A DNA stretch of 64,000 bases, taken from assembly GCF_950295315.1 (NCBI RefSeq), contig NC_080172.1, forward strand, positions 80,929,118-80,993,117. Direction: 5' to 3'. The position numbers and the translations under genes were made by a program. This document shows, one piece after another, positions 2,595-58,660 of this stretch (positions within the stretch are counted from its first letter, which is position 1; each line of letters opens with the position of its first letter). The stretch comes from Erinaceus europaeus. Lineage: Eukaryota > Chordata > Mammalia > Eulipotyphla > Erinaceidae. The notes beneath the pieces are model-generated. The model was not told where the DNA came from. It worked only from the letters and a program-made list of their open reading frames with translations, and ran no database searches.

Positions 2595-2913
2595 AGGACC
2601 TCACCAATGTGTCCTGGAGTTCTGCTTCCCTAGAGCCCCACCCTACTATGGAAAGAGAGAGACAGGCTGGGAGTATGGATCAACCTGTTAATGCCCATGT
2701 TCAGCGGGGAAGCAATTACAGAAGCCAGACCTTCCACCTTCTGCATCCCACAATGACCTTGGCTCTATACTCCCAGAGGCATAAATTATAGGAAAGTTGT
2801 CAGGAGAGGGGATGGGATATGGAGATCTGGTGGTGGGAATGGAGGGGAGTTGTACCCCTCTTATCCTACGGTCTTGTTAATGTCTCCTTTTTTAAATAAC
2901 TAAAAAAAATTTT
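2595..2913 (+). mobile_element. 5'-truncated L1 3' UTR (type B)
   Basis: This is the last 0.3 kb of the long type B L1 3' UTR. It has the 'cattgtgggatgcag'-type block in sense orientation and the terminal 'ggtggtgggaat' and 'gttgtacccctcttatcc' motifs, and ends in an A-rich tail. An exact 13-bp TSD, 'aaagcatgttgag', lies at 2582-2594 and 2914-2926. Confidence 0.87.
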
Positions 2914-2926
2914 AAAGCATGTTGAG

Positions 2927-3603
2927 TCTTGTCAATAATAATAAAAGTCATCAAAACCAGGTATGAGATTTTTTCATGTTAATTCCTAGATAGAACTAAG
3001 TGATTATTTTTTCAGTAGTTATAATATAATAACTGCTTACAATAAATTATTGTTATCATCAGCTACCTTTCAAAATAGTAAAAACAAACAAGTCACATGT
3101 AGCTTCAGTTTCTCCAGGCCAATCCTGACACACAAACTACACCTAGTTTGAGAGTTTGTTCACTATGAGGCGAAGGAAAAAGCCTTTGAACATCACACCT
3201 GTTGAACTATGAGGAATTCACCTAAAAGGGAATTCAAAACAGTAGTACTAACCTCCAGGAAATTCTGCTTCTTAGTACCTGAGTGGACCTTTAAGTTAAG
3301 CAAGCATTGGGAGAGGGATCACAGAGCCACTTGTACAGGGTTTCTGGCGATCTGAGCAATGTGCCAGAGTGTCCAGTACAAAGATACCTGCTTGTTCCTT
3401 AACTCTGACAAGCTGAAGACATTTTATGAAGACACTGGGAGAATTTCAAATACTACTTCCTTTCTGACTAAAAATAATACTTTTCAATTGCTGATGTCAG
3501 CATTAGACAAAAAAATGGTGTTGAATAGATTTTGATTAAATTAGTCAGGAATAGGTGAAGTGATTTAAAATTACCTAATGCCTTTGAGTGTTTATTATAG
3601 TAG
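2927..3603. other. single-copy stretch
   Basis: AT-rich DNA with no recognised element or ORF. Confidence 0.4.
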
Positions 3604-5285: not shown

Positions 5286-6124
5286 CTTTTTTTCCCTTTA
5301 GATAAAATGATTTGCAAGCACTAGGAGGTATACTTTATTCCCCCTTAACTGTGCAGTTGTTCTGTTCAATAGTATGCTGCTCTTTGGTGTTGCTACAATT
5401 TTTACTACAAATTGAATTTCACTCCTATCATTGCTGGTTTATATTGTTCTCTATTACAGAGTACCTTACCTGGTTCACCTCCATCAGCAGCTGTTTGTGA
5501 ATCTTAGATATTTTTCTGTTTATTTTAAACTGAATTTGTGTCAAAGAAGCTATGAATTCATTACCAGAATGTTGTGATTCCTTCCTGAAATTATATCTTA
5601 AGTTACCTGATTTTTCTTCCATCATTAATTACTTTTCAATTATTATTGTGTGGTTTTATATTCTTTAGTGAGTTTTGTTATGAGCCACTTAAAATAGATG
5701 AAACATATAAACCTTTACCAAAAATGTATACGGATGTAATTCCTTATTTAAAAAAATTGGATTTCCAAATGCTGTATATATATTCGTTGCAAGTCTTTAT
5801 TTTAGGCATTCTCGTTTCTATATTAATTAATCTCCAGGTTTTAGCTCACTTTACACAATATCTTTATTATCAGCTGTGTTTAGCAATATATCAAATTAAT
5901 TACAAATTAATGCCAGCCATTTAGTAGCATTATAATGGAAAGTGAAATTGCCTTTTCTCTCTGAGTATTCTCCCACATTGACATTTTGCTATATCAGAGA
6001 TAAGTCTATTAAAGTTAAACCATCTTTGTTTTCTAAGCCTCAGTTTACTAAGTGCTCCATAAGGGATAATATGAAAAAAGCTCCCTTAGAGTTATGTAGA
6101 CTAACCACAGCAATTATTGGATCA
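5286..6124. other. AT-rich single-copy stretch
   Basis: The 60-90 codon ORFs here have the low-complexity composition of AT-rich DNA. No motif was found. Confidence 0.45.
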
Positions 6125-6135
6125 ATGTTTAGAAA

Positions 6136-6858
6136 ATGTTTAGAATTGTCTCACAAACACAACTAGCTGAACAAGCTAATAAAACAGTATCAGAACAGGG
6201 TAACAAAATAGATGAACTCCAGAAAACAGTAGAGGGCAGAGAGAATAGAATCAATGAGGGTGAAGACAGAATTAGCAAGACCAAGGACGAATTAGAGACA
6301 ACTAAAAAAGAAGTAAGAGATCTCAAAAAGAGATTAAGAGATACTGAAAACAACAACAGAGACCTATGGGATGACTTCAAAAGAAACAATATACACATTA
6401 TTGGCTTACCAGAGGAAGAGAGAGAGGAAGGGAAAAAAAGCATTCTTCAGGACATAATAGCTGAGAACTTCTCTAGTCTGGACAACTTAAAATACATAAA
6501 GATTCAAGAAGCTCAGAGGGTCCCAAAAAGAATTAACCCAGACTTAAAGACATGAAGACACATCATATTTAGAATGGAAAGGAATAGGGGTAAAGAAAGG
6601 ATCCTGAAGGCTGCAAGAGAAAAATAGTTACCTACAGAGAAAAACCCATAAGATTAGTAGCAGACTTCTCCACACAAACACTACAGGCAAGAAGAGAATG
6701 GCAAGATATCAAGTGTTCAAAGGCTTTCAACCAAGAATACTGTATCCTGCTAAACTGTCATTCAGACTAGATAGAGGCATAAAAACCTTAGACAAGCAAC
6801 AGTTGAAGGAATCAACTATCACCAAGCCTGCCCTGAAAGAAGTTCTGAAAGGTCTCCT
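6136..6858 (+). pseudogene. L1 ORF1p remnant (RNA-binding protein)
   Basis: L1 ORF1p is the RNA-binding trimeric chaperone of L1 ribonucleoprotein particles. The open part (6136-6555) shows a long heptad-like coiled coil rich in E, K and N. It is followed by the start of the RRM-like domain ('IIGLPEEEREEGKKSI') and the family motif 'IQEAQRVPKRINP'. After a stop near 6553 the C-terminal domain continues in broken form; 'ARREWQDI' is readable around 6690-6710. The N-terminus is missing. Confidence 0.85.
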
Positions 6859-7021
6859 ATAAACAGTCAGAATACCATAAATATGTCATATATCAGAACA
6901 CTCTAAAACTTTACAAGAATAGCATTAAAATATCTTCAATCTTTAATATCAATAAATGTCAATGGCCTGAATGCACCTATTAAAAGACAAAGAGTAGGAA
7001 GATGGATTAGAAAATGCAACC

Positions 7022-7453
7022 TGGAGAGGTTGTGGGGACAGAGGAACCCTTTTACATTGCTGGTGGGAATGTCAATTGGTCCAGCCTCTGTGGAGAGCAG
7101 TCTGGAAAACTCTCAGAAGGCTAGACATGGACCTTCCATATGATCCAGTAATTCCTCTCCTAGGGTTATACCCCAAGGACTCCATAACACCCAACCAAAA
7201 AGAGGTGTGTACTCCTATGTTCATAGCAGCACAATTCATAATAGCTAAAACCTGGAAGCAACCCAGGTGCCCAACAACAGATGAGTGGCTAAGAAAGCTG
7301 TGGTATATACACACAATAGAATACTATGCAGCTATCAAGAACAATGAACCCACCTTCTCTGACCCATCTTGGACAGAGCTAGAAGGAATTATGTTAAGTG
7401 AGCTAAGTCAGAAAGATCATCTGTTGATGATCCCACTCATCAACAGAAGTTGA
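7022..7453 (+). pseudogene. C-terminal fragment of L1 ORF2p
   Basis: The open frame 7076-7453 carries the conserved C-terminal segment of ORF2p: 'PLWRAVWKTLRRL', then 'AAQFIIAKTWKQPRCP', then 'IEYYAAIKNNEP'. It ends shortly after 'LSELSQKD', where mammalian ORF2 normally terminates. It belongs to the nested L1 and is otherwise not functional because the rest of ORF2 is absent. Confidence 0.9.
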
Positions 7454-8794
7454 CTAAGAAGATCTGAAAGGGAAACTAAAAGCTGGACCTGACCAAATTG
7501 TAAGTAGGGCACCAAAGTAAAAACCCAGTGGTGAGGGGTAGACATGCAGCTTCCTGGGCCAGTGGGGGGTGGGAGTGGGTGGGAGGGATGGGTCACAGTC
7601 CTTTGGTGGTGGGAATGGTGTTTATGTACACTCTTAGTAAAATGTAGACATATAAATCACTAGTTAATATGAGAGGGGTAAAATTAATTGTATGTCTTGA
7701 AGTTTTTCAAAACACAAACTGAATCTTTTTAATATATAGGCTGTGTAATTGATATGCAGATTCTCTCAAAAGCCTAGACCAAGTAGATCAGAAGCAACCA
7801 ATAGCACAGCTATATACAAGGTACTGGGTACTATACAGCAAACCCTAACAAAAGGACTTTTCAAAGTTAACCTAATTACCAAATAATGTGATGATAACAT
7901 TAACTATCCATTGTCTTTTTGAACCCTAAGACAGCAGGAACCTCACATCTCCACTATAGTGCCTCTACTTCCCCCAATCCTGAAACCCTTGGATAGGGTC
8001 CACTTTCCTGTATGCCTCTCCTAATCCATATCAAATAATATTGCATCTGCCAATCACAACCTAAGCAATGCAGTGATTGCCACCTCAACATGCTTCACTT
8101 CAGACTGTGTCCAGAGACTTCACGTGTGGAATGACAACCCTTCAGCTCCATTACTCGGGTGAGACCTTTCCTTTCATAGTATACTCTAATTCCATCTCAG
8201 GTGGTTCACTTTCTAACAAAGTCCCAAAACCTAGATATACACCAGTTTCTGTGAAAGAGAGCATATGTTCACACAAATCCATAAAAAAGTGCAAAATATA
8301 TACCTGAAAGCAGAAGTACACTAGAGTTTGCAGTGAGTACCCCCCTAACATTTCCTATCCACCATTCCAAGCTTTGGGTCCATGATTGCTCAACAATTTG
8401 TTTGGCTTCATATGTTACCTCTCTTTTCAGTCACCAGGTTCCAGATGTCATCAGGATGCCGACCTGGCTTCCCTAGACTGAAGACCCCACCAATATGTCC
8501 TGGAGCTCCGCTTCCCCAGAGACCCACCCTACTAGGGAAAGAGAGAGGCAGACTGGGAGTATGGACTGACCAGTCAACAATCATGTTCAGCAAGGAAGCA
8601 ATTACAGAAGCCAGACCTTCTACCTTCTGCAACCCACGATGACCCTGGGTCCATTCTCCCAGAGGGATAGAGAATGGGAAAGCTATCAGGGGAGGGGGTG
8701 GGATATGGAGATTGGGTGGTGGGAATTGTGTGAAGTTGTACCCCTCCTACCCTATCGTTTTGTTAATTAATCCTTTCTTAAATAAAAAAGAAAA
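7022..8794 (+). mobile_element. nested 5'-truncated L1 with type B 3' UTR
   Basis: A 1.77-kb L1 3' fragment inserted into ORF2 of the surrounding L1. The exact 11-bp TSD 'aaaatgcaacc' lies at 7011-7021 and 8795-8805, and the host reading frame resumes directly after it. It contains the last ~125 codons of ORF2 and then about 1.3 kb of type B 3' UTR ending in an A-rich tail at 8780-8798. It must be younger than the host L1. Confidence 0.93.
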
Positions 8795-11700
8795 AAAATG
8801 CAACCCAACAAAATGCTATCTATAAGAAACCCACCTAACTCAACAAGACAAGCACAGACTCAAAGTGAAAGAATGGAAAGCTACCATACAAACCAATGGC
8901 CCACAAAAAAGGACAGGAACAGCTATTTTCATATATGACAAGATAGACTTTAAAATAGATAAGATTAAAAAAGATAGGAACAGAAACAACTTAATGCTCA
9001 GTGAATTAGTCAATCAAGAGGACTTAACAGTTGTTAACATCTATGTACCCAATGAGAAGCCATCTAAATACATCAAATGTCTAGTGAAAGAGCTACAGCA
9101 ATATATTAACAGCAACACAGTCATAGTAGGGGACTTCAACACCCCACTCTCTCAACTTGACAGATTATCCACAGAAAATCAATAAAGACATAAGAGAGCT
9201 AAATGAGGAGATAGTAAAATAGAACTATTGGACATTTTCAGAGTCATTTATCCCAAGAAACTGGAATACACATTCTATTCATATCCACATGGGTCATTCT
9301 CAAGGATAGACCATATGTTAGGCCACAAAGACAGCATCAGCAAATTCAAGAGCATTGAAATCATCTCAAGCATCTTCTCAGACCACAGTGGAATTAAACT
9401 AACACTTAACAATTAACAAAAGATCAGTAATAGTCCCAAAATGTGGAAGCTCAACAGTATACTTCTTAACAACTACTGGATCAAAGAGGAAATAAAGGAA
9501 GAAATCAGAATGTTTCGAGAGTTCAATGAAAATGAATACACAAGCTATCAAACTATTTGGGACACATTTAAGGCAGTACTGAGAGGGAAGTTCATAGCCA
9601 TACAAGCACACATTAGGAAACAAGAAAAAGCACATAGAAATAGCCTGACTGCACATCTTAAAGACCGAGAAGAAGAACAACAAAGGAACCCTAAAGCAAC
9701 CGTAAGGATAGAAATAACTAAAGTTACGGCAGAAATCAATAACATTGAAAATAAGAAAACCATACAAAAGATCAATGAAAGTAAATGTTGTTTCTTTGAA
9801 AGAGTGAACAAAATTGACAAACCTTTAGCCAGACTCACAAAACAAAAAAGGGAGAAGACCCAAATAAATCGGATAGTAAATGAAAGAGGAGATATCACAA
9901 CAGACACTGTAGAAATTCAACATATCATGCGAGGCTTCTATGAACAACTATATGCCACCAAGTTAGAGAACCTGGAAGAAATGGACGATTTCCTAGACTC
10001 CTACCAACTTCCAAAACTAAGTAAAGAGGAAGTAGATAATATGAACAGGCCCATCATAGATGATGAAATTGAAATAGTTATCAAAAATCTTTCCCAAAAT
10101 AAAAGGCCTTAACCAGATAGTTTTACAAATGAATTCTACAAAACCTTCAAAGAAGAACTAATACCTCTATTTTTAAAAGTCTTCCAGAAGATTGAAGACA
10201 CTGGAATACTCCCTCCCAGCTTCTATGAAGCCAACATCACTCTGATACCAAAAACAGATAGGGCTACAACCAAAAAAGGAAACTACAGACCAATATCTCT
10301 GATGAACATAGATGCAAAATACTGAACAAAATTCTAGCCAACCAGATACTGCAGTATATTAAAAAGATTGTTCATCATGACCAAGTGGGGTTTATCCCAG
10401 GCATGCAAGGTTGTTTTAATATATATAATTCAATCAACATGATCCACCACATCAACAAAAGCAAGACCAAACACCACACGGTCATATCAATAGATGCAGA
10501 GAAAGCCTTTGAAAAATACAACATCCCTTTATGATCAAAACACTACAAAAATGGGAATAGAAGGAAAATACCTGAAGTTAGTGGAGACTATATATAGCAA
10601 ACCTACAGCCAACATCATACTCAATGGTGAAAAACTGGAAGCATTTCCGTTCAGATCAGGTACTAGAAAGGGCTGCCCACTATCACGATTACTATTCAAC
10701 ATAGTGCTGGAAGTTCTTGCCATAGCAATCAGGCAGGAACAAGGAATTAAAGGGATACAGATTGGAAGAGAGGAAGTCAAACTCTCCCTTTTTGCAGATG
10801 ACATGATAGTATACATAAAAAAAATCTAAGGAATCCAGCAAGAAGCATTTGGAAATTATCAGGAAATACAGTAAGGTGTCAGGCTACAAAATTAACATTC
10901 AAAAGTCAGTCAGTGGCATTCCTCTATGCAAACACTAAGTTAGAAGAAACTGAAATCCAGAAATCAATTCCTTTTACTATAGCAACTAAAACAATAAAAC
11001 ACCTTGGAGTAAACTTAACCAAAGAAGTGAAAGACTTGTATACTGAAAATTATGAGTCACTACTCAAGGAAATTGAAAAAGATACAAAGAAGTGGAAAGA
11101 TACCCCATGTTCATGGGTTGGAAGAATTAATATCATCAAAATGAATATACTACCCAGAGCAATATACACATGTAATGCTATCCCCATCAAGATACCAAGC
11201 ACATCTTTAGGAGAATAGAACAAATGCTACAAATGTTTATCTGGAACCAGAAAAGACCTAGAATTGCCAAAACAATCTTGAGAAGAAAGAACAAAACTGG
11301 AAGCATCATACTCCCAGAACTCAAATTGTATTAGAGATCCATTGTAATCAAAACTTGCAAATCTCAACAAGACAACAAATAACCCCATCCAAAAATGGCG
11401 GGAGGGCATGGACAGAATATTCACCAGAGAAGAGATCCAAAAGGCCAAGAAACACATGAAAAAATGTTCCAAGTCTCTGATTGTCAGAGAAACGCAAATA
11501 AAGACAACAATGAGATACCACTTCACTCCTGTGAGAATGTCATACATCAGAAAAGGTAACAGCAGCAAATGCTGAAGAGGATGTGGATTCAAAGGAACCC
11601 TCTTACACTGCTGGTGGGAATGTCAATTGGTCCAACCTCTGTGGAGAACAGTCTGGAGAACTCTCAGCAGGCTAGAAATGGACCTACCCTATGATCCTGC

Positions 11701-11856
11701 AATTCCTCTCCTGGGGATATATCCTAAGGGACCCAACACACTCATCCAAAAAAGATCTGTGTACACATATGTTCTTGGCAGCACAATCTGTAATAGCCAA
11801 AACCTGGAAGCAACCCAGGTGTCCAACAACAGATGAGTGGCTGAGCAAGTTTTTGT

Positions 11857-11909
11857 ATGTATGTATATGTGTGTGTGTGTATGTGTGTATATATATATAT
11901 ATATATATG
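11857..11909 (+). repeat. TG/TA simple repeat inside L1
   Basis: A mixed (TATG)n, (TG)n and (TA)n tract replaces part of the ORF2 C-terminal coding region of the plus-strand L1. Confidence 0.9.
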
Positions 11910-12365
11910 AATACTACTCAAGTATAAAAAAAATGGTGACTTTACCGTTTAAAGCCCATCTTGGATGGAGCTTGAAAAATTCATGTTAAGTGAAATAAGT
12001 TAGAAACAGAGGATGTGTATGGGATCATCTCACTCTCAGGCAGAAGTTGAAAAACAAGATCAGAAAAGAAAACACAAGTAAAACTGGAACTGGAATTGGC
12101 GTATTGCACCAAAGTAAAAGACTCTGGGGTGGGTGGGTGGGGAGAATACAGATCCAAGAAGGATGACAGAGGATCTAGTGGGGGTTGTATTGTTATATGG
12201 AAAACTGGGAAATGTTTGCATGTACAAACTATTATATTTATTGTTGAATGTAAAACATTTATTCCCAATAAAGAAAATTTTAAAAAAGTATCAAGTACTA
12301 TTATTATTGTCTGTTTCGGTTTTCTTGTTTTTAGTCTCTCAAAGACATTTACTATAGAATTTCTG

Positions 12366-25148: not shown

Positions 25149-25155
25149 CCACCCC

Positions 25156-25199
25156 CTCTCCTTGTCACACCCTGATCCTCTCCTTGTCACACCCTGATC
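25156..25199 (+). repeat. 22-bp tandem duplication in LTR U3
   Basis: Two identical copies of a 22-bp unit (25156-25177, 25178-25199). Solo LTR 3 has the unit once, so the duplication is private to this copy or its lineage. Confidence 0.9.
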
Positions 25200-25474: not shown

Positions 25475-26419
25475 CAGCTGTTGTCCATGGAGGTTCAGGT
25501 CAGAAAGGAAACTGCAGTCTCAGTATAGGTGGTGATAGAACACACACTCCAGGACTTGTAGGGAATAGAATCTGGCGAATGGTAGACTGGAAATGAAGCA
25601 GTGCAGGCAATGAGACCCCCTTGCTATCTGGGTATTCTTGAGGTGACACGTAGGACTCTTACTAGCTTAAAGATATTATTTATTTGCTTGGAGTCAGTCA
25701 GGTGTGGCCTGAGGAGGACCTGTTTGCAAGGATTTAACACTTTTTATGAATGCCTCTCGGTCCCTTGTTAAATCTGTTGCTAGTAGGTGTGGTGCTCTGC
25801 TTTCAGGATCTACCACCATAGTCCATTACTGTGGACACTGAATCCCATCATGGTAGGTACCAAAGGAATCTCACTGAATCCCATCATGGTAGGTACCAAA
25901 GGAATCTCATAAACACTAACAGAGATCATTAGGATGGCTATTGCCATAAGCTCCTCCTGGGAGTTATACTATATAGTTTCTTTTCTACCATTGTGATATA
26001 ATAAGGTTAAGGTGCCAGGAGTTTAGTACAACCTATCCAGATTTATGTTCCCTATCACAAATTTCTCTTCCTGATAGCAACATGTTGCATGGAGGAGATT
26101 ATTTTTTGGGGAAGGTTGTTCCCTATGTCATAACTGTAATGCTGATATTTTGTCCCTTGCTGTGGAACCTTGTTTGTCTGAAGGGTTGCAGATTCCCTTC
26201 TATGCTGTTTTTTTTTTTTATACACAGGTATAACTTTGCTGATATTGTGGGATGCAGTAAGCACAGGTCCTCCCTACTCACCCATCTCAGTTCTGTCTCT
26301 ATAAAGCATTTTACAACACAACAACTTTGTTTTTTAAGGACTTTTAGAAATTCAAAATTTAGAAATTTAATTTGATTTAATTCATTTCTCTACTGAAATA
26401 ATATGAATCATACTCCCTG
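25475..26419. other. single-copy stretch with one tandem duplication
   Basis: No gene was recognised. A 36-bp unit is exactly duplicated at 25837-25872 and 25873-25908. Confidence 0.5.
25837..25908. repeat. exact 36-bp tandem duplication
   Basis: Two identical adjacent units. Identity suggests a recent duplication or an assembly artefact. Confidence 0.95.
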
Positions 26420-37505: not shown

Positions 37506-37822
37506 ATCTTTGAAAAGTTTCTTAAATATAATATGGTCGGAAAAGTCATGATGTACTTTTCTATGTAAAACTACATCATGATTTTTTTGACAACCCAACA
37601 TTATGTTCTTGAAGTAAAATATATAATCCTTTTATTTCCACTGTGTTCTATATTTTGTCTACACCTAAATTGTTGCAGGTGATCAACTGTAAAGGTTAAA
37701 TCATTACTGCCAGTGATCATAACTAGCTGTCCCATTGGACTGTGAAAACAGAAAACTGGCCATACTTACTATGTTTCCAAACTCCAGGAAAATTCCTAGT
37801 ATTTATTAGAAATGCTTTGAGA
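37506..37822. other. single-copy stretch
   Basis: Nothing recognised. Confidence 0.4.
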
Positions 37823-38008
37823 GGGGTGCTGACAGTGGCACACCTAGTTGAGCGCACATGCAATCATGCACAAGAATCTGGGTTCCAGCTTTGCCGCTTC
37901 CTGTGGGCAGTAGGGTCAAGCATCAAAAGTGGTGAAGCAAGTACTGCAAGTGTTTCTCCCCTGTTCTATCTTCTCTCCTCTTCTCAAGTTCCTTCTGCCC
38001 TATCAAAT

Positions 38009-38577
38009 CTTCTTCTTCTAGCGTTTGCCCTTCTTCCGTAGCCAGACAACAGCGTCAGGTTGAGCCTGATGTAAAGTTTCGAGACCTCCTTTGAATCTGG
38101 AGAGGTGGCAGTCGTTGACTATGTGGGTCATAGTCTGTCTGTAGCCGCAGGGGCAGTTCGGGTCGTCTCTCGCTCCCCAGCGATGGAACATAGTGGCGCA
38201 CCAGCCATGGCCTGTTTGATAGCGATTGAGGAGGGCCCAATCATAACGTGCTAGGTCAAAGCCGGGTTGCCTTCAGGGGTCTGTGATGAGGTGTTTGTTC
38301 TTTACCTCAGCTGACTGCCAACTGTGTTTCCAAGAGTCTGGAATAGAGAAGTTCAGTGTAGGCATAGGAGACCAGATTGGATGACGAGACGTCAAGCGTT
38401 GGACAGGGTGGACTCGAAGAGCAGGACCAACAGCTTGAAAGCTGTCAGGAGCTTGTTTCTGGCTTTGAAAGTGACTGGGATCCATGTGGATTCAGTCGGC
38501 TAGGAAGGATCGTCAGTTTCCCCAATGAATGGGTACTCACGGGATGCACCACGGGAAGGTCGATCAAATGCATCCCA
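38009..38577 (-). mobile_element. RTE-like non-LTR retrotransposon, 5'-truncated 3' end
   Basis: A 569-bp insertion into a SINE, with exact TSD 'cctatcaaat' at 37999-38008 and 38578-38587. On the minus strand it is coding to its end: the stop codon TAG (38018-38020) is followed only by (AAG)3 at 38009-38017. A nearly absent 3' UTR and a short tandem-repeat tail are features of RTE-clade elements, not of L1, which has a poly(A). Base composition is more GC-rich than its surroundings. It does not resemble BovB or L1 C-termini that I know. Confidence 0.85.
38018..38485 (-). pseudogene. C-terminal part of an RTE-like reverse transcriptase polyprotein
   Basis: One reading frame runs from 38485 to the stop at 38018 with a single in-frame TGA (38273-38275). 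It carries 'RQPGFDLARYDWALLNRYQ', then 'MFHRWGARDDPNCPCG', then 'TMTHIVNDC'. The last two give a CxC...H....C metal-binding-like motif common at the C-terminus of RTE- and Jockey-type proteins. Upstream (38577-38450) coding continues in another frame, so there is one frameshift. No reverse transcriptase active site is included. From memory the closest look-alikes are arthropod and other invertebrate elements; this needs a search. Confidence 0.82.
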
Positions 38578-39208
38578 CCTATCAAATAAAGAACAACAAT
38601 GACAAAAAAAAAAAAAAGGCTACTGGGAGCAGTAGATTCATAATGTAGACATAGGGCTCCAGTTATAACCTTGGTGGCAATAAAGTGTAAAAAGATAAAA
38701 ATATCCAACCATAGAATTTTTGATAAAAACAAGTTCTCAACTAACTTGATTATAATAATAATTATTTATTACCTTTTCAAACCCTAAGACTACAAGGAAC
38801 CTTCCCCATTCTATTTAAGACTTGTATTTCTCCCAATCCTGGAACCTCTGGGACTTTGCTTGTATTTCTTGATGCCTCTCCTTTCAACCGCTTACCCTGT
38901 TATACTGCCTCTGCTGACTTAACTAAATCAACACAACCAGTGTCACCACACCACATTATGTTGCCACTGCCTTTTTGCTTCAGAGTGTCAACCTCCCAAC
39001 CCCAATTTGGTGAGAATTTTCTTAATACCTACCTACTTTCACATTAGATGGTGCTAGATAACCTAGATCCTAGATACAGGGTAGGGCCTAGAGGACTGGG
39101 TACATATATATACATATCTGTAAGATAAGGGCTACTATATACCTCAAAGTAAATGAGCTTAATAGTCCTCTGTGATTAGATTTACAACTATTCCTCAGCA
39201 ATCTAGTA

Positions 39209-39677
39209 TGTCCAGAAATTGTGAGGAGCCTCACAAAGCACCCTGCATTCCTGATACTATGGACTATCTACATAATCGTTGTTTTGCCTGAAAGATCCCC
39301 ACCCATTCCATTCCTTTGATCTATCTTCTTTCTACCCTCCAGACCCTTCCTGCCTGGAGGGTAGTATTATTAATCCTACCAGTTAAAACCCTCACAACAG
39401 TTGCTAAGGAAGTTTCTACTTTCCCAGCCCCTTTTTGCCTTTCTCCACCCTTTTCCTAGCCATTTCCGTTTCTGAATTGCCACTTCCGGGTCTGCCTTTT
39501 AAAGGCCTTGTCTCTTTGATCAATAAAGATATTGCATTGCCTCGCACCACCTGTTTGGTTCCTGAGTCATCTCCCTTGCGTCGCTGAGTGAGTAGCAGCT
39601 CAGGCTGACTCTGGTTGTGTTCTCTCCAATCCAGAGAGTATGCGCCTGGGAAGAGGCACCCCCATGCTAGCCTGGCA
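39209..39677 (+). mobile_element. solo LTR 2 with exact 6-bp TSD
   Basis: A 469-bp TG...CA element flanked by exact 'ctagta' at 39203-39208 and 39678-39683. It has an AATAAA signal at 39522-39527 with a weak TATA-like 'ttttaaa' about 25 bp upstream. The U5 end shares a 'ttctctccaatccagagag' segment and the following 'gggaagaggcaccc'-like stretch with solo LTR 1, while U3 differs. It is inserted in an old L1 3' UTR. Confidence 0.9.
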
Positions 39678-53694: not shown

Positions 53695-56600
53695 TCAGTT
53701 TATGAATGGGATCATCCCATACTCGTCTTTGTCTTTCTGATTTAGCTCACTTAACGTAATTCCTTCTAGCTCCATAGAAGATAGGTCAGAGAATGTGGGT
53801 TCATTGTTCTTAATAGCTGCGTGGTATTCCATTGTGTATATATACAACAACTTTCTCAGCCACTCTTCTGTTGTGGGCACCTGTGTTGCTTCCAGGTTTT
53901 AGCTATTATGAATTGTGCTGCAATGAACATAGGTGTACACATATCTTTTTGGTTGGTTGTTATGAAGTCCTTAAGGTAAGTCCCCAGGAGAGGAATTACT
54001 GGGTCATATGCAAGGTCTATATCTAGCCACGTGAGAGTTATCCAGACTGTTCTCCACAGAGATTGGACCAGTTTGCATTCCCACCAGTAGTACAGGAGGG
54101 TTCCTCTGTCCCCACAGCCTCTCCAGCATTTGCTGCTGCTGTCCTTTTTGATGTATGCCATTCTCACAGGGGTGAGGTGGTATCTCAGTGTTGTCTTTAT
54201 TGCATTTCTCTGACAATCAGTGACCTGGAGCAATTTTTTTGTGTTTGTTAGTCTTTTGGATCTCTTCTGTAGTGAATGTTCTGTTCATATCCTCTGCCCA
54301 TTTTGGGTGGGGTCATTTTCTTTTTTGTTGCTAAGTTTGCTGAGCTCTTTGTATATTTTGGTTATAAGCCTCTTGTCTGATGTATGACATGTGAAGATCT
54401 TCTCCCATTCTGTGAAGGGTCTCTTTGTTTACGTGATAGTTTCTTTGGCTCTGCAGAAGATTTTCAATTTGATGTAGTCCTACTGATTTTTTTCTACTTT
54501 ATTTTTCCTTGAAATTAGGTCTATTTTGTCAAAGATGTCCTTGAGGTTTAGGTGGGAAAGTGTTCCACCAATGTTTTCCTCTAGTATTTGATAGTTTCTA
54601 AGTATTTGATAGTTTCAGGTCCTTCATCCATTTGGAGTTGACTTTTGTTTCTAGTGATATAAAGAGGTTCAGTTTCATTCTTCTGCATGTTTCAACCCAG
54701 TTTTCCCACCACTATTTATTGAAGAGAGCCTCCTTTCTCCATTTAGTACTTTAGGCTCCCTTATCAAAGAGTAGATGCCCATAGGTGTGGGGGTTTAGTT
54801 CTGGGCTTTCAATTCTGTTCCACTGGTCTGTGTTCCTATATTTGTTCCAGTACCAGGCTGTTTTGATGATGATGGTCTTATAATGTAGTTTGAGATCTGG
54901 GAGTGTGATGCCCTCATTTCTGTTTCTTTTCCTCATGATTGTTTTGGCAATTCTAGGTGTTTTCTGGTTCCAAATAAATGATTGTAGTTTTTGTTCTATT
55001 CTCTTAAATAAGCTTGGTGGAACTTTGATGGGTATCATGTGAAACTTCTATGTGGTTCTAGTGAGAATATTCATTTTGATGATATGAATTCTTCCAATCC
55101 ATGTGCATAGGATGTCTTACCATTTCTTGGTATCATTTTCTATTTCCTTGAATAGTGACTCATAGTTTTCAGTATACAAGTCTTTCACTTTTTTGGTCAG
55201 CTTTATTCCTAGGTATTTTATTGATTTTTCTGCAACAGTGAATGGGAGTGATTTCTGGATGTCTTCTTCTTCAGATTTAGTGTTTGTATAAAGAAAGCCA
55301 CTGATATTATAGCCTGACACCTTGCTATATTGCCTAATAACTTCCAGTAGTTTTCTACTGTATTCTTTAGGTTTTTCTATGAATACTATCACATCATCTG
55401 CAAATAGTGAGAGCTTAACTTGTTTCTTTCCAATCTGTATTCTTTTGATTTCTTTCTCTTGACTGGTTTCTATGGCAAGAACTTTCAATACTATGTTGAA
55501 GAGTAATTGTGACAATGGACAACCCTGTCTAGTCCCCAATCTGAAGGGGAATGCTTTCAGCTTCTGCCCATTGAATATGATGTTGGCTATAGGTTTGCTG
55601 TATATGGACTTCATTATCTTGAGGAATTTCCCATCTATTCACATTTTTTCGTAGTGTTTTGAACATGGATGGGTGTTGGATTTTTTTCAAAGGCTTTCTC
55701 TGCATCTATTGAAATAATTGTTTGGTTTTGTTTTTGTTTTTATTGATGTGGTGAATGTCATTGATTGACTTATGTATGTTGAACTAGCCTTGCATTCCTG
55801 GGATAAATCCTACTTGGTCGTGATGAACAATCTTTTTGATATACTGTTGTATTCGTTGGCCTTCTTGTTTAATATTTTGGCATCTATGTTCATCAGAGAT
55901 TTTGGTTTGTAGTTTTCCTTTTTTGTTGTGTCCCTATCTGCTTTTGGTATCAGGGTGATGTTGGTTTCATAGAAGGTGGAAAAGAGTGTTCCTGTTTCTT
56001 AGATCTTGTGGAAGAACTTTAGATGTATAGATATTAGCTTTTTCCTGAATGTTTTGTAGAATTCATTTGTAAAGCCATCTTGCTCAGGACATTTGTTGTT
56101 GGGAAGACACTTAATAACTGTTACGATTTCTTTGTCTGTGATTGGTGCATTTAAGTTTTGTAGTTCTTCCCTGGTTCAGTTTTGGAAGGGCATATGTTTC
56201 TAGGAATTCTTCCATTTCTTCCAGATTATCTAGCTTGGTGGTGTATAGTTCTTTGTAGAAGTTTTGCATAAGTTTCTGGATTTCTGTGGTGTCAGTTGTG
56301 ATATCGCCTCTATCATTCACAAATTCTATTAATTTGATTCATCTCCTCCCTCCCCCCCTTTTTTTAGTGAATTTGGCTAGGGGGTTGTCAATCTTGTTTA
56401 ATATTTCAAAGAACTAACATTTTCCTTCATTGATATTTTGTATGGTTCTCTTATTTTCGATGTTGTTATTTCTTTTCTAATCTTGGTGATTTCCTTCCTT
56501 CTGGTTGCTTTAGGGTTCCTTTTTCCTCTTACTCTAAGTCCTTGAGGTATGCAGTAAGGTCATTTATTTGAGCTTTTTCTAATGTGTGATTGTATGGCTG

Positions 56601-57489
56601 AGTTTCCTTCTCAACACTGCTTTAGCTGTGTCCCAAATATTCTCATAACTTGTGTCTTCATTTTCATTTGTTTCCAGGAACATTTGAATTTCTTGCTTGA
56701 GTGTCTCTCTGACCCAGTAGTTCTTAAGCAATATGTTGTTGAGTTTCCAAATTCTGTGAAATTCAGTAATTTTCTGTTTATTGTTGAATTTTAGCTTTAG
56801 TCCACTGTGGTCTGATAAGATACTTGGTATGATTTCAATGCTCTTGAATTTGTTGATTCTGTCTTTATGGCCTAACATGCGGTCCATCCTTGAGGATGTA
56901 CTGTGTGGATTTGAAAAGACTGTGTATTCTTGTTTTGGGGGGTGAAGAACTCTGAAATTGTTCAGGAGGTCTAGGCTGTCCATCTCTTCATTTAATTCTC
57001 TTGTTTCTTTGATGATTTCTGCTTCGTTGATCTGTCTTAGTGAGAGAGTGGGGTGTTAAAGTCTCCCACCATTATTGTATTACTACTGATGTATTTTTAT
57101 AGTTCTTTCAGTAGTTGTTTGATATCTTTAGATGATCCCTTGTTGGGTGCATAAATGTTAGTAATTGTTAAATCTTCTTGATTCATTGGTCCTCTAATCA
57201 CTATGTAATAGCCTTACCTATCTTTTATTACTTTATTCAATTTAAAGTCTATTGTGTCAGAGATGAGAATGACTATTCCTGCCCTTCTTTGTGGACCATT
57301 AGCCTGTATTATAGTTTTCCATCCTTTCTCTTTAAGTCTGTGTTTGTCTTGTTGCGTCAGATGGAATTCTTCAAGCAGCATATGTTTGGGTTGTGTTTCT
57401 GATCCATCTTCCCATTCTGTGCTTTTAATGGGTGAGTTTATGCCACTGACATTTATTGATATTATGGATTTAATGTATTTTAATGCCAT
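53695..57489 (-). pseudogene. L1 ORF2p (endonuclease, reverse transcriptase), inactive
   Basis: The span of about 1265 codons is close to the usual L1 ORF2 length of about 1275. The endonuclease start has 'SINVSGINSPIK' near 57460, and its end has '[20 protein letters not shown]' near 56880 and '[11 protein letters not shown]' near 56815. Reverse transcriptase has '[19 protein letters not shown]' near 55530 and the active-site 'FADDVIVF' near 55400. The C-terminus has 'AAQFIIAKTWKQHRCP' near 53900 and 'MEYHAAIKNNEP' near 53830. Multiple stops and frameshifts split the frame. Confidence 0.92.
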
Positions 57490-57559
57490 TATTCAAAAAA
57501 ATTTTATTTTATTAAAAATATTTATTTTTATTTTATATGCTAAGTATTATGGTGATGTT

Positions 57560-58660
57560 CTTATTTATAAGAGGTCTTTTAGTACCTCTTTTAGGGAAGG
57601 CTTGATGATGGTTGCCTCCTTTAAATGTTGTCTGTCTGAGAATGTTTTGATCCCTCTATCTAGTTTGAATGAAAATCTAGCAGGATATATTATCCTTGGT
57701 TGAAACCGTTTTTCCATTCAGGGCTCGACAGATATCTTGCCATTCTCTTCTGGCTTTCAGAGTTTGAATGCAGAAGTCTGCTGATAGACTTATGGGTTTT
57801 CCCTGTATGTGACTTTTTGTTTTTCTTTTGCAGCCTTTAGGACCCTTTCTTTATCCTTACTTCTTTTCATTCTAACAATGATGTATGTTGATGTCTTCAG
57901 GTCTGAGTTGATTCTTTGGGACTCTCTGGGCCTCTTGAATCTTAATGTCTTTTCTGTTGTTTAGGTTAGGTCTGGGAAGTTTTCTTATATTATTTCATCT
58001 AGACTGTTGACTTCTCTTTCCTCTCTTTCTTCCTCTGATAGGCCTATTATATGAATGTTACTTCTTTTGAGATCATTCCATATGTCTCTGTTGTTGGTTT
58101 CAGTGTCTCTTAATCTCTTTTTGAGCTCCTTTACCTCTTTCTTAGTTTTCTCTAGCACATCCTCTGTCTGTCTAATTCTGTTTTATGCTTCTGTTAGTCT
58201 GCTTTCCCTTCCCTCAGCTTCTTTCTTTAGTTCAGTTATAGTATTAGCTTATTCTGCTAGTTAGCCTTTTAGTTCTACTATTTCAGTTTTCAGTTCTCTA
58301 ATTACCTCGAGGTAGCTTGTATTTTCTTTGCTCTGTTGTTTCCTTAATTCTGATAGCCCTTTCCTCCATAGTTGTCTTCATCTCTGTGATTATTAGGTTT
58401 ATTATTGCTTGCATACTTTTCTTATGTATGGTTACTTCTGACTGATTTGGAATTTCTTCCGGGCTCCTGTCCTGATTCATTGTGGTAGCAGTTTTATTTG
58501 CTCTTGATTTAACCATTTTTTTAATTGATGTGGTCTTTATTTTTCTATTCTGTGATTCTTCAGTTGTTTTGAGTACAAGCCACGCTATACTAAAGACCTT
58601 TATGACAAATGCAGTCACCAACCTCAGAAATTACAACAATAGCATCGGAAGCAAGGATTT
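57560..58660 (-). pseudogene. L1 ORF1p, inactive
   Basis: The N-terminal part is open at 58621-58298 (basic, Lys/Thr-rich). A Lys/Glu-rich coiled-coil-like region follows at about 58290-58060. The RNA-binding C-terminal region is near 57850-57700 ('KARREWQDI' readable). Frames are broken. The exact start codon is uncertain. Confidence 0.75.

Follow-up and report, generated by a model that had tools for sequence, protein, structure and literature searches.

An insertion inside a hedgehog SINE fits a known kind of internally deleted, non-autonomous Vingi element

The window analyzed here, by which we mean the whole 64,000-nucleotide stretch of Erinaceus DNA, contains a 569-bp insert bracketed by two exact copies of the 10-bp target-site duplication (TSD) CCTATCAAAT (Table 1). 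Read on the minus strand, the insert starts with TGGGATGCATT and carries one reading frame that opens with an ATG at 38485, is interrupted by a single in-frame TGA (38275-38273), and closes at a TAG (38020-38018), after which nothing but (AAG)3 follows, down to 38009. The motif CPCGYRQTMTHIVNDC (CxC-x7-H-x4-C) lies in the 84-aa tail of this frame. The insert length, the TSD, the single in-frame stop, the TAG followed by (AAG)3 and the motif had been described in an earlier, sequence-only reading of the locus, as had the position of the insert inside a SINE, and all were recovered in our analysis. A BLASTN search of the insert against the 64,000-nt window returned the self-match alone (E up to 0.01).

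The flanks of the insert, joined computationally into an empty site, align through the junction in 66 alignments (~62-72% identity) drawn from 37 of 60 sources, namely the window and 59 loci that partly overlap. Because the empty site is found uninterrupted in this many sources, the target is a dispersed, SINE-like repeat, and the element sits immediately ahead of its poly(A). By our reading of its sequence, the target SINE would be of the tRNA type; ARAGORN predicted 0 tRNA genes in the window, and an Rfam search of 37700-38800 gave no match up to E 1.

Table 1. Features of the insertion and its target, in window coordinates.
Feature	Position	Strand	Basis
SINE, two halves, interrupted; insertion target	37834..38617	+	poly(A) at 38604-38617; left edge approximate; empty-site alignment to uninterrupted copies, and sequence
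TSD copy 1 (element's 3' side)	37999..38008	n/a	exact repeat
Complete internally deleted, non-autonomous Vingi-type non-LTR retrotransposon	38009..38577	-	TSD, parent mapping, full-span DNA matches
(AAG)3 3' tail abutting the stop codon	38009..38017	-	sequence; similar tail in most copies
C-terminal 84 codons and TAG, with CxC-x7-H-x4-C motif	38018..38272	-	translation, homologs, motif scan
Fused-frame start: ATG, N-terminal stub (MDPSHF...VGPALR), junction and initial C-terminal part, to the in-frame TGA	38273..38485	-	
Deletion junction, CC common to both edges; ~2.5 kb of parent missing	38410..38411	-	mapping on L024; identical in 9/9 relatives
Element 5' end / 5' UTR (GGGATGC from the second base)	38486..38577	-	equal 5' boundary beside direct repeats in L021 and L024
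TSD copy 2 (element's 5' side)	38578..38587	n/a	exact repeat

The parent of this element was found in the same genome. When the 84-aa tail was searched in the 2.72-Gb assembly, the best 150 of 35,223 word candidates were scored and showed 93-98% identity (excluding self), with an internal stop in three of the listed matches; twelve of the matched places, all with long open frames, were read. One of them, L009, has a 798-codon open frame that shares its C-terminus with the window copy and contains a reverse-transcriptase (RT) domain (PF00078, E 1.3e-29) with a YADD motif. Its relatives of solved structure (11 distinct sequences: R2, LINE-1 and other reverse transcriptases) match at the RT core only, the best E for L1 ORF2 structures being 1.4e-10. 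A second copy, L024, is near full-length, running for ~3,080 bases (~3.1 kb) from GGGATGCATTGG to the tail, with direct repeats of up to 14 bp around it. Its frame is interrupted by stops and shifts, and two Pfam families, both over their cut-offs (PF03372, E 1.7e-7; PF14529, E 1.3e-6), identify its N-terminal piece as an endonuclease of the AP type (APE). The parent is an ORF with an APE endonuclease and an RT with YADD, these two domains being seen in separate copies (L024 and L009, respectively) and not in one unbroken frame, followed by a C-terminal CxC-x7-H-x4-C and by (AAG)n that abuts the stop.

The tail motif is widespread among relatives. Specifically, a looser-spaced pattern of the same kind occurs in 144 of 161 proteins (the homologs from two protein searches plus the L009 frame), compared with 0 of 161 shuffled sequences. 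The tail is zinc-knuckle-like. The Pfam zf-RVT match on the 84-aa tail reaches 14.2 bits, under the 27.5-bit cut-off, so that this label depends on the motif. Against PDB sequences, the 84-aa tail gave no match up to E 1.

Mapping onto the parent showed that the insert is not the continuous 3' piece of an element that it had been taken for; both ends of the parent are fused, and the earlier reading had missed the internal deletion between them. Among the twelve long copies, insert bases 167-569 (in the sense orientation) were alone matched (E up to 1e-5). Bases 1-166 correspond to the 5' UTR and first ~25 codons of the element: they align with the 5' end of L024 at 94% identity, and they show a likeness to the N-termini of full-length relatives (MDPSHF...QAVGPALR versus ...FQAIGPALR) that is weak when taken alone (E 0.01-0.2, 121 proteins). 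On L024, the window copy occupies 1-173 and 2675-3080, in blocks overlapping by a few bases, and ~2.5 kb encoding the endonuclease and RT is gone. The window element is therefore the parent's 5' end with ~25 codons, joined to the last ~130 codons in a frame that continues across the break. The same junction was found in nine of the nine relatives that were read, which have exact flanking repeats of 7-13 bp (L021 and eight copies near the top of the DNA-match list; the flank-swap control described below applies to its own 68 places).

A search of the genome with the whole insert revealed that this deleted structure recurs. The best 40 of 2,062 candidates were scored; all of them span the query from position 9 or earlier to position 565 or later with no large gap, and the 39 matches besides the window copy are 95-97% identical to it. 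Since every scored match spans the deleted structure, the short element constitutes a non-autonomous family, of at least 40 copies when counted by these matches. Hence, it has the traits of a short internally deleted element, namely both LINE ends retained, the core gone and many copies. The element as a whole is far more abundant: its 27-base 3' end, with up to one mismatch, occurs 33,285 times in the Erinaceus assembly, compared with 0 times for a reversed control, and this count is a genome-wide lower bound. Contamination, which the sequence-only reading had named as a possible explanation, is ruled out by these 33,285 matches. Two fetched stretches (L015 and L050) each hold two copies of the element, consistent with a high copy number.

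The copies also behave as products of LINE-type insertion by target-primed reverse transcription (TPRT), with TSDs, a fixed 3' end and frequent 5' truncation. The element's 5' end is reached at three of 74 distinct places (the window copy, L021 and L024; 80 loci surveyed), and the other copies start at scattered positions, a few of them because the retrieved sequence stops there, while 3' ends fall within ~10 bases of one point. In a test of 68 places, six of the 74 being omitted as split or at an edge, an exact flanking repeat of at least 9 bp was present around 28 of 68 family copies, compared with 0 of 68 when flanks were swapped; the 40 copies that have no repeat of this length may reflect age, short TSDs or misplaced edges. 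Most copies end in AAG repeats; L066 is among the exceptions, and its TAG run in place of AAG suggests slippage at priming or later repeat expansion. The mean K2P distance to the majority is 0.019, or 0.011 outside CpG (49 of 60 loci; 5 duplicates and 6 shorter loci omitted), values that represent well-kept copies only, because open-frame length was one of the grounds on which the loci (L002-L080) were chosen among the 150 scored of 35,223 candidates.

Absence of RNase H distinguishes Vingi from Ingi. Vingi is reportedly an Ingi-like clade lacking RNase H, and Kojima, Kapitonov and Jurka are said to have described (2011, Mol Biol Evol 28:17-20) eleven internal-deletion families in the European hedgehog, and to have proposed horizontal transfer while leaving vertical descent possible. 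Our results revealed each of these structural traits: an ORF with AP-endonuclease and RT (the L024 piece and the L009 frame), no RNase H family when the 798-aa L009 frame was searched against Pfam up to E 1, and non-autonomous copies formed by internal deletion. The parent fits Vingi, a placement made by features, host type and literature and not by alignment to a published consensus. With Vingi-1_EE and Vingi-1N..._EE of the hedgehog it shares being a compact mammalian non-L1 LINE, an APE and RT ORF, no RNase H, young internally deleted derivatives and proposed horizontal transfer; in PMC3183009, one such derivative, Vingi-1N3_EE, is given 311 copies under 1% diverged. The window locus thus fits an already known kind of non-autonomous Vingi element, to which it adds one slightly decayed copy and a clear view of a single-junction deletion family.

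Our preferred explanation, to which we assign a probability of about 0.92, is that the insert belongs to a non-autonomous family that was internally deleted from the abundant hedgehog Vingi-type LINE and is copied by the parent's enzyme. The RNA of the short element would retain the parent's 5' and 3' ends, so that it could serve as a template for the reverse transcriptase of intact parents, with target-primed reverse transcription beginning at the 3' tail. At this locus, such a copy would have landed just before the SINE poly(A), creating the 10-bp TSD, and then decayed slightly. We infer trans-mobilization by the parent's enzyme, and the deletion presumably goes back to a single event, with one or few source copies behind its later amplification. 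RIME, which derives from Ingi, is part of a comparable arrangement. In the SIDEs (Persaeus of Lepidoptera and TbRIME), as far as the consulted sections of PMC6740152 describe them, the LINE core is likewise deleted and both ends retained, with presumed use of partner-LINE enzymes. Their LINE clades and hosts differ (those sections list flies, Anopheles and T. brucei and make no mention of hedgehogs), the repeats reported at their breaks are of 5 bp compared with 2 bp in the window element, and the in-frame fusion of ORF ends belongs to the window element.

One alternative, in line with the sequence-only reading of the insert as RTE-like and invertebrate-looking, is that it is a 5'-truncated LINE of the RTE clade that came by transfer from an invertebrate such as an arthropod. 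In the RTE clade, BovB included, the 3' UTR is minimal and the 3' end is a short tandem repeat. The window element shares both features, its (AAG)n abutting the TAG, and these traits do favor such an origin; to our knowledge, however, they are not peculiar to that clade. They also set the element apart from L1, as had been noted earlier: L1, too, is a LINE that encodes APE and RT, makes TSDs and is often 5'-truncated, but the window element, a non-LTR retrotransposon with a TSD and a short tandem-repeat tail, has neither a poly(A) tail nor a real 3' UTR. Contrary to 5' truncation, the element's own 5' end is present and the loss is internal. The literature, moreover, assigns the element of hedgehogs to Vingi, a neighbor of Ingi, and it is on literature and features that the RTE label is set aside; the trees described below had no RTE reference and do not decide this point.

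Protein relatives bear on the supposed invertebrate source. A search with the L009 frame gave 580 matches (E up to 0.001), and the figures that follow are from the 120 listed. The closest, P0002 (an ENA contig of 2,072 bases), encodes 582 aa that match 71% of the L009 frame at 97% identity, and probably represents the same family in DNA of the same or a close host. Among the matches listed, the next relatives over nearly the whole query are ~58% identical, many of them of ~1,000 aa with endonuclease and RT, and shorter relatives reach up to 60% identity over 60-69% of the query. Where a host is named among the 120, it is one of five invertebrates (an aphid, a sandfly, an ascidian and two moths, at 41-43% over 96-99%) or an eel (46% over 53%). 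That the aphid, sandfly, moth and ascidian proteins outrank the eel by bit score, and that the eel match covers 53% only, speaks for an invertebrate source. However, no close donor appeared among the listed relatives, and when the eel protein was itself searched, eel was the only organism named among the 120 listed of 707 matches.

Both trees, each including P0002, group the window family with eel rows and with rows that have no host name, as most rows do. Specifically, in a careful tree of 40 chosen rows, whose root was set by us on named invertebrates and some other rows, several of them long branches, a 100/100 branch separates the window family from the sandfly, the moths, the aphid and the ascidian, and the side with the eel has 96/93. 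A quick, midpoint-rooted tree of 86 rows repeats this split. Given the few host names and the long outside branches, the trees fall short of a vertebrate origin; they do remove the support for an arthropod-like element, with eel the only named host on the element's side. An invertebrate origin is thus unsupported by both trees, and we regard the transferred-RTE explanation as very improbable.

Horizontal transfer as such is a separate question. As raised in the sequence-only reading, it was a fair idea, and in print: PMC3183009 counts hedgehog Vingi among older "likely horizontal transfers", which makes this unusual, young non-L1 LINE in a mammal a cited case; the transfer gained no donor from our searches. 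Elsewhere in the literature, Vingi in hedgehogs is credited to Kojima et al. 2011 and X12_LINE is listed as a human-genome Vingi trace, Vingi is reported in locust (PMC3391268), and one pre-amniote Vingi fossil is counted in human (PMC9004415). The Vingi traces listed for human (X12_LINE and the one pre-amniote fossil) speak against a need for transfer, and the pre-amniote fossil leaves room for vertical descent.

The African hedgehog offers a further count. RepeatMasker files Vingi under I-Jockey. A figure from the consulted portion of PMC12026660 on African hedgehog repeats, which gives 4,476 I-Jockey copies and names no "Vingi" there, is not used as evidence.

A second alternative, slightly less credible still than the transferred RTE element, is that the in-frame fusion has been kept by selection, with a ~156-aa peptide (N-terminal stub and CCHC-like tail) that helps or hinders retrotransposition of the parent. 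The frame does cross the junction, and 156-157 codons are intact in seven of the nine relatives read. However, an in-frame junction has a one-in-three chance, and little frame breakage is expected because the copies are young and their frames have scarcely been exposed to it. Further, among ten copies compared with their majority, the 72 substitutions in the small frame comprise 42 non-synonymous, 26 synonymous and 4 stop-type changes, near the neutral 0.67/0.28/0.05, so that no selection was seen in this small test; the stop-type count is possibly one too high, as each base was counted separately in codons carrying two changes, and L088, to which one such stop was assigned, has an open frame. 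Of the ten copies, the one in the window has diverged furthest, by 2.3% from the majority compared with 0.5-1.8% for the others, having gained one in-frame stop and lost one codon. It is equally doubtful that germ cells produce a ~156-residue fusion that acts in trans on Vingi RNA, whether as helper or as self-limiting competitor; if so, the short family would regulate its parent through this fusion. Least credible of all is a local chimera at one locus, made by template switching or later deletion with no family behind it, which the two separate blocks against the parent would suit but which is refuted by the identical junction amid differing flanking repeats in 9/9 relatives and by full-span matches at 40 places.

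Apart from the insertion, the window has several minor features. An LTR-like stretch at 39440-39600, with AATAAA and a CTGAGTGAGT-type end, may be the LTR of an endogenous retrovirus. AT skew is of opposite sign at 6001-12000 (~+0.25) and 54001-58000 (~-0.35), as is expected of L1 bodies on both strands. Finally, perfect short tandem repeats occur at 25836-25909 (36 bp, 2.1 copies) and 25155-25199 (22 bp, 2 copies).
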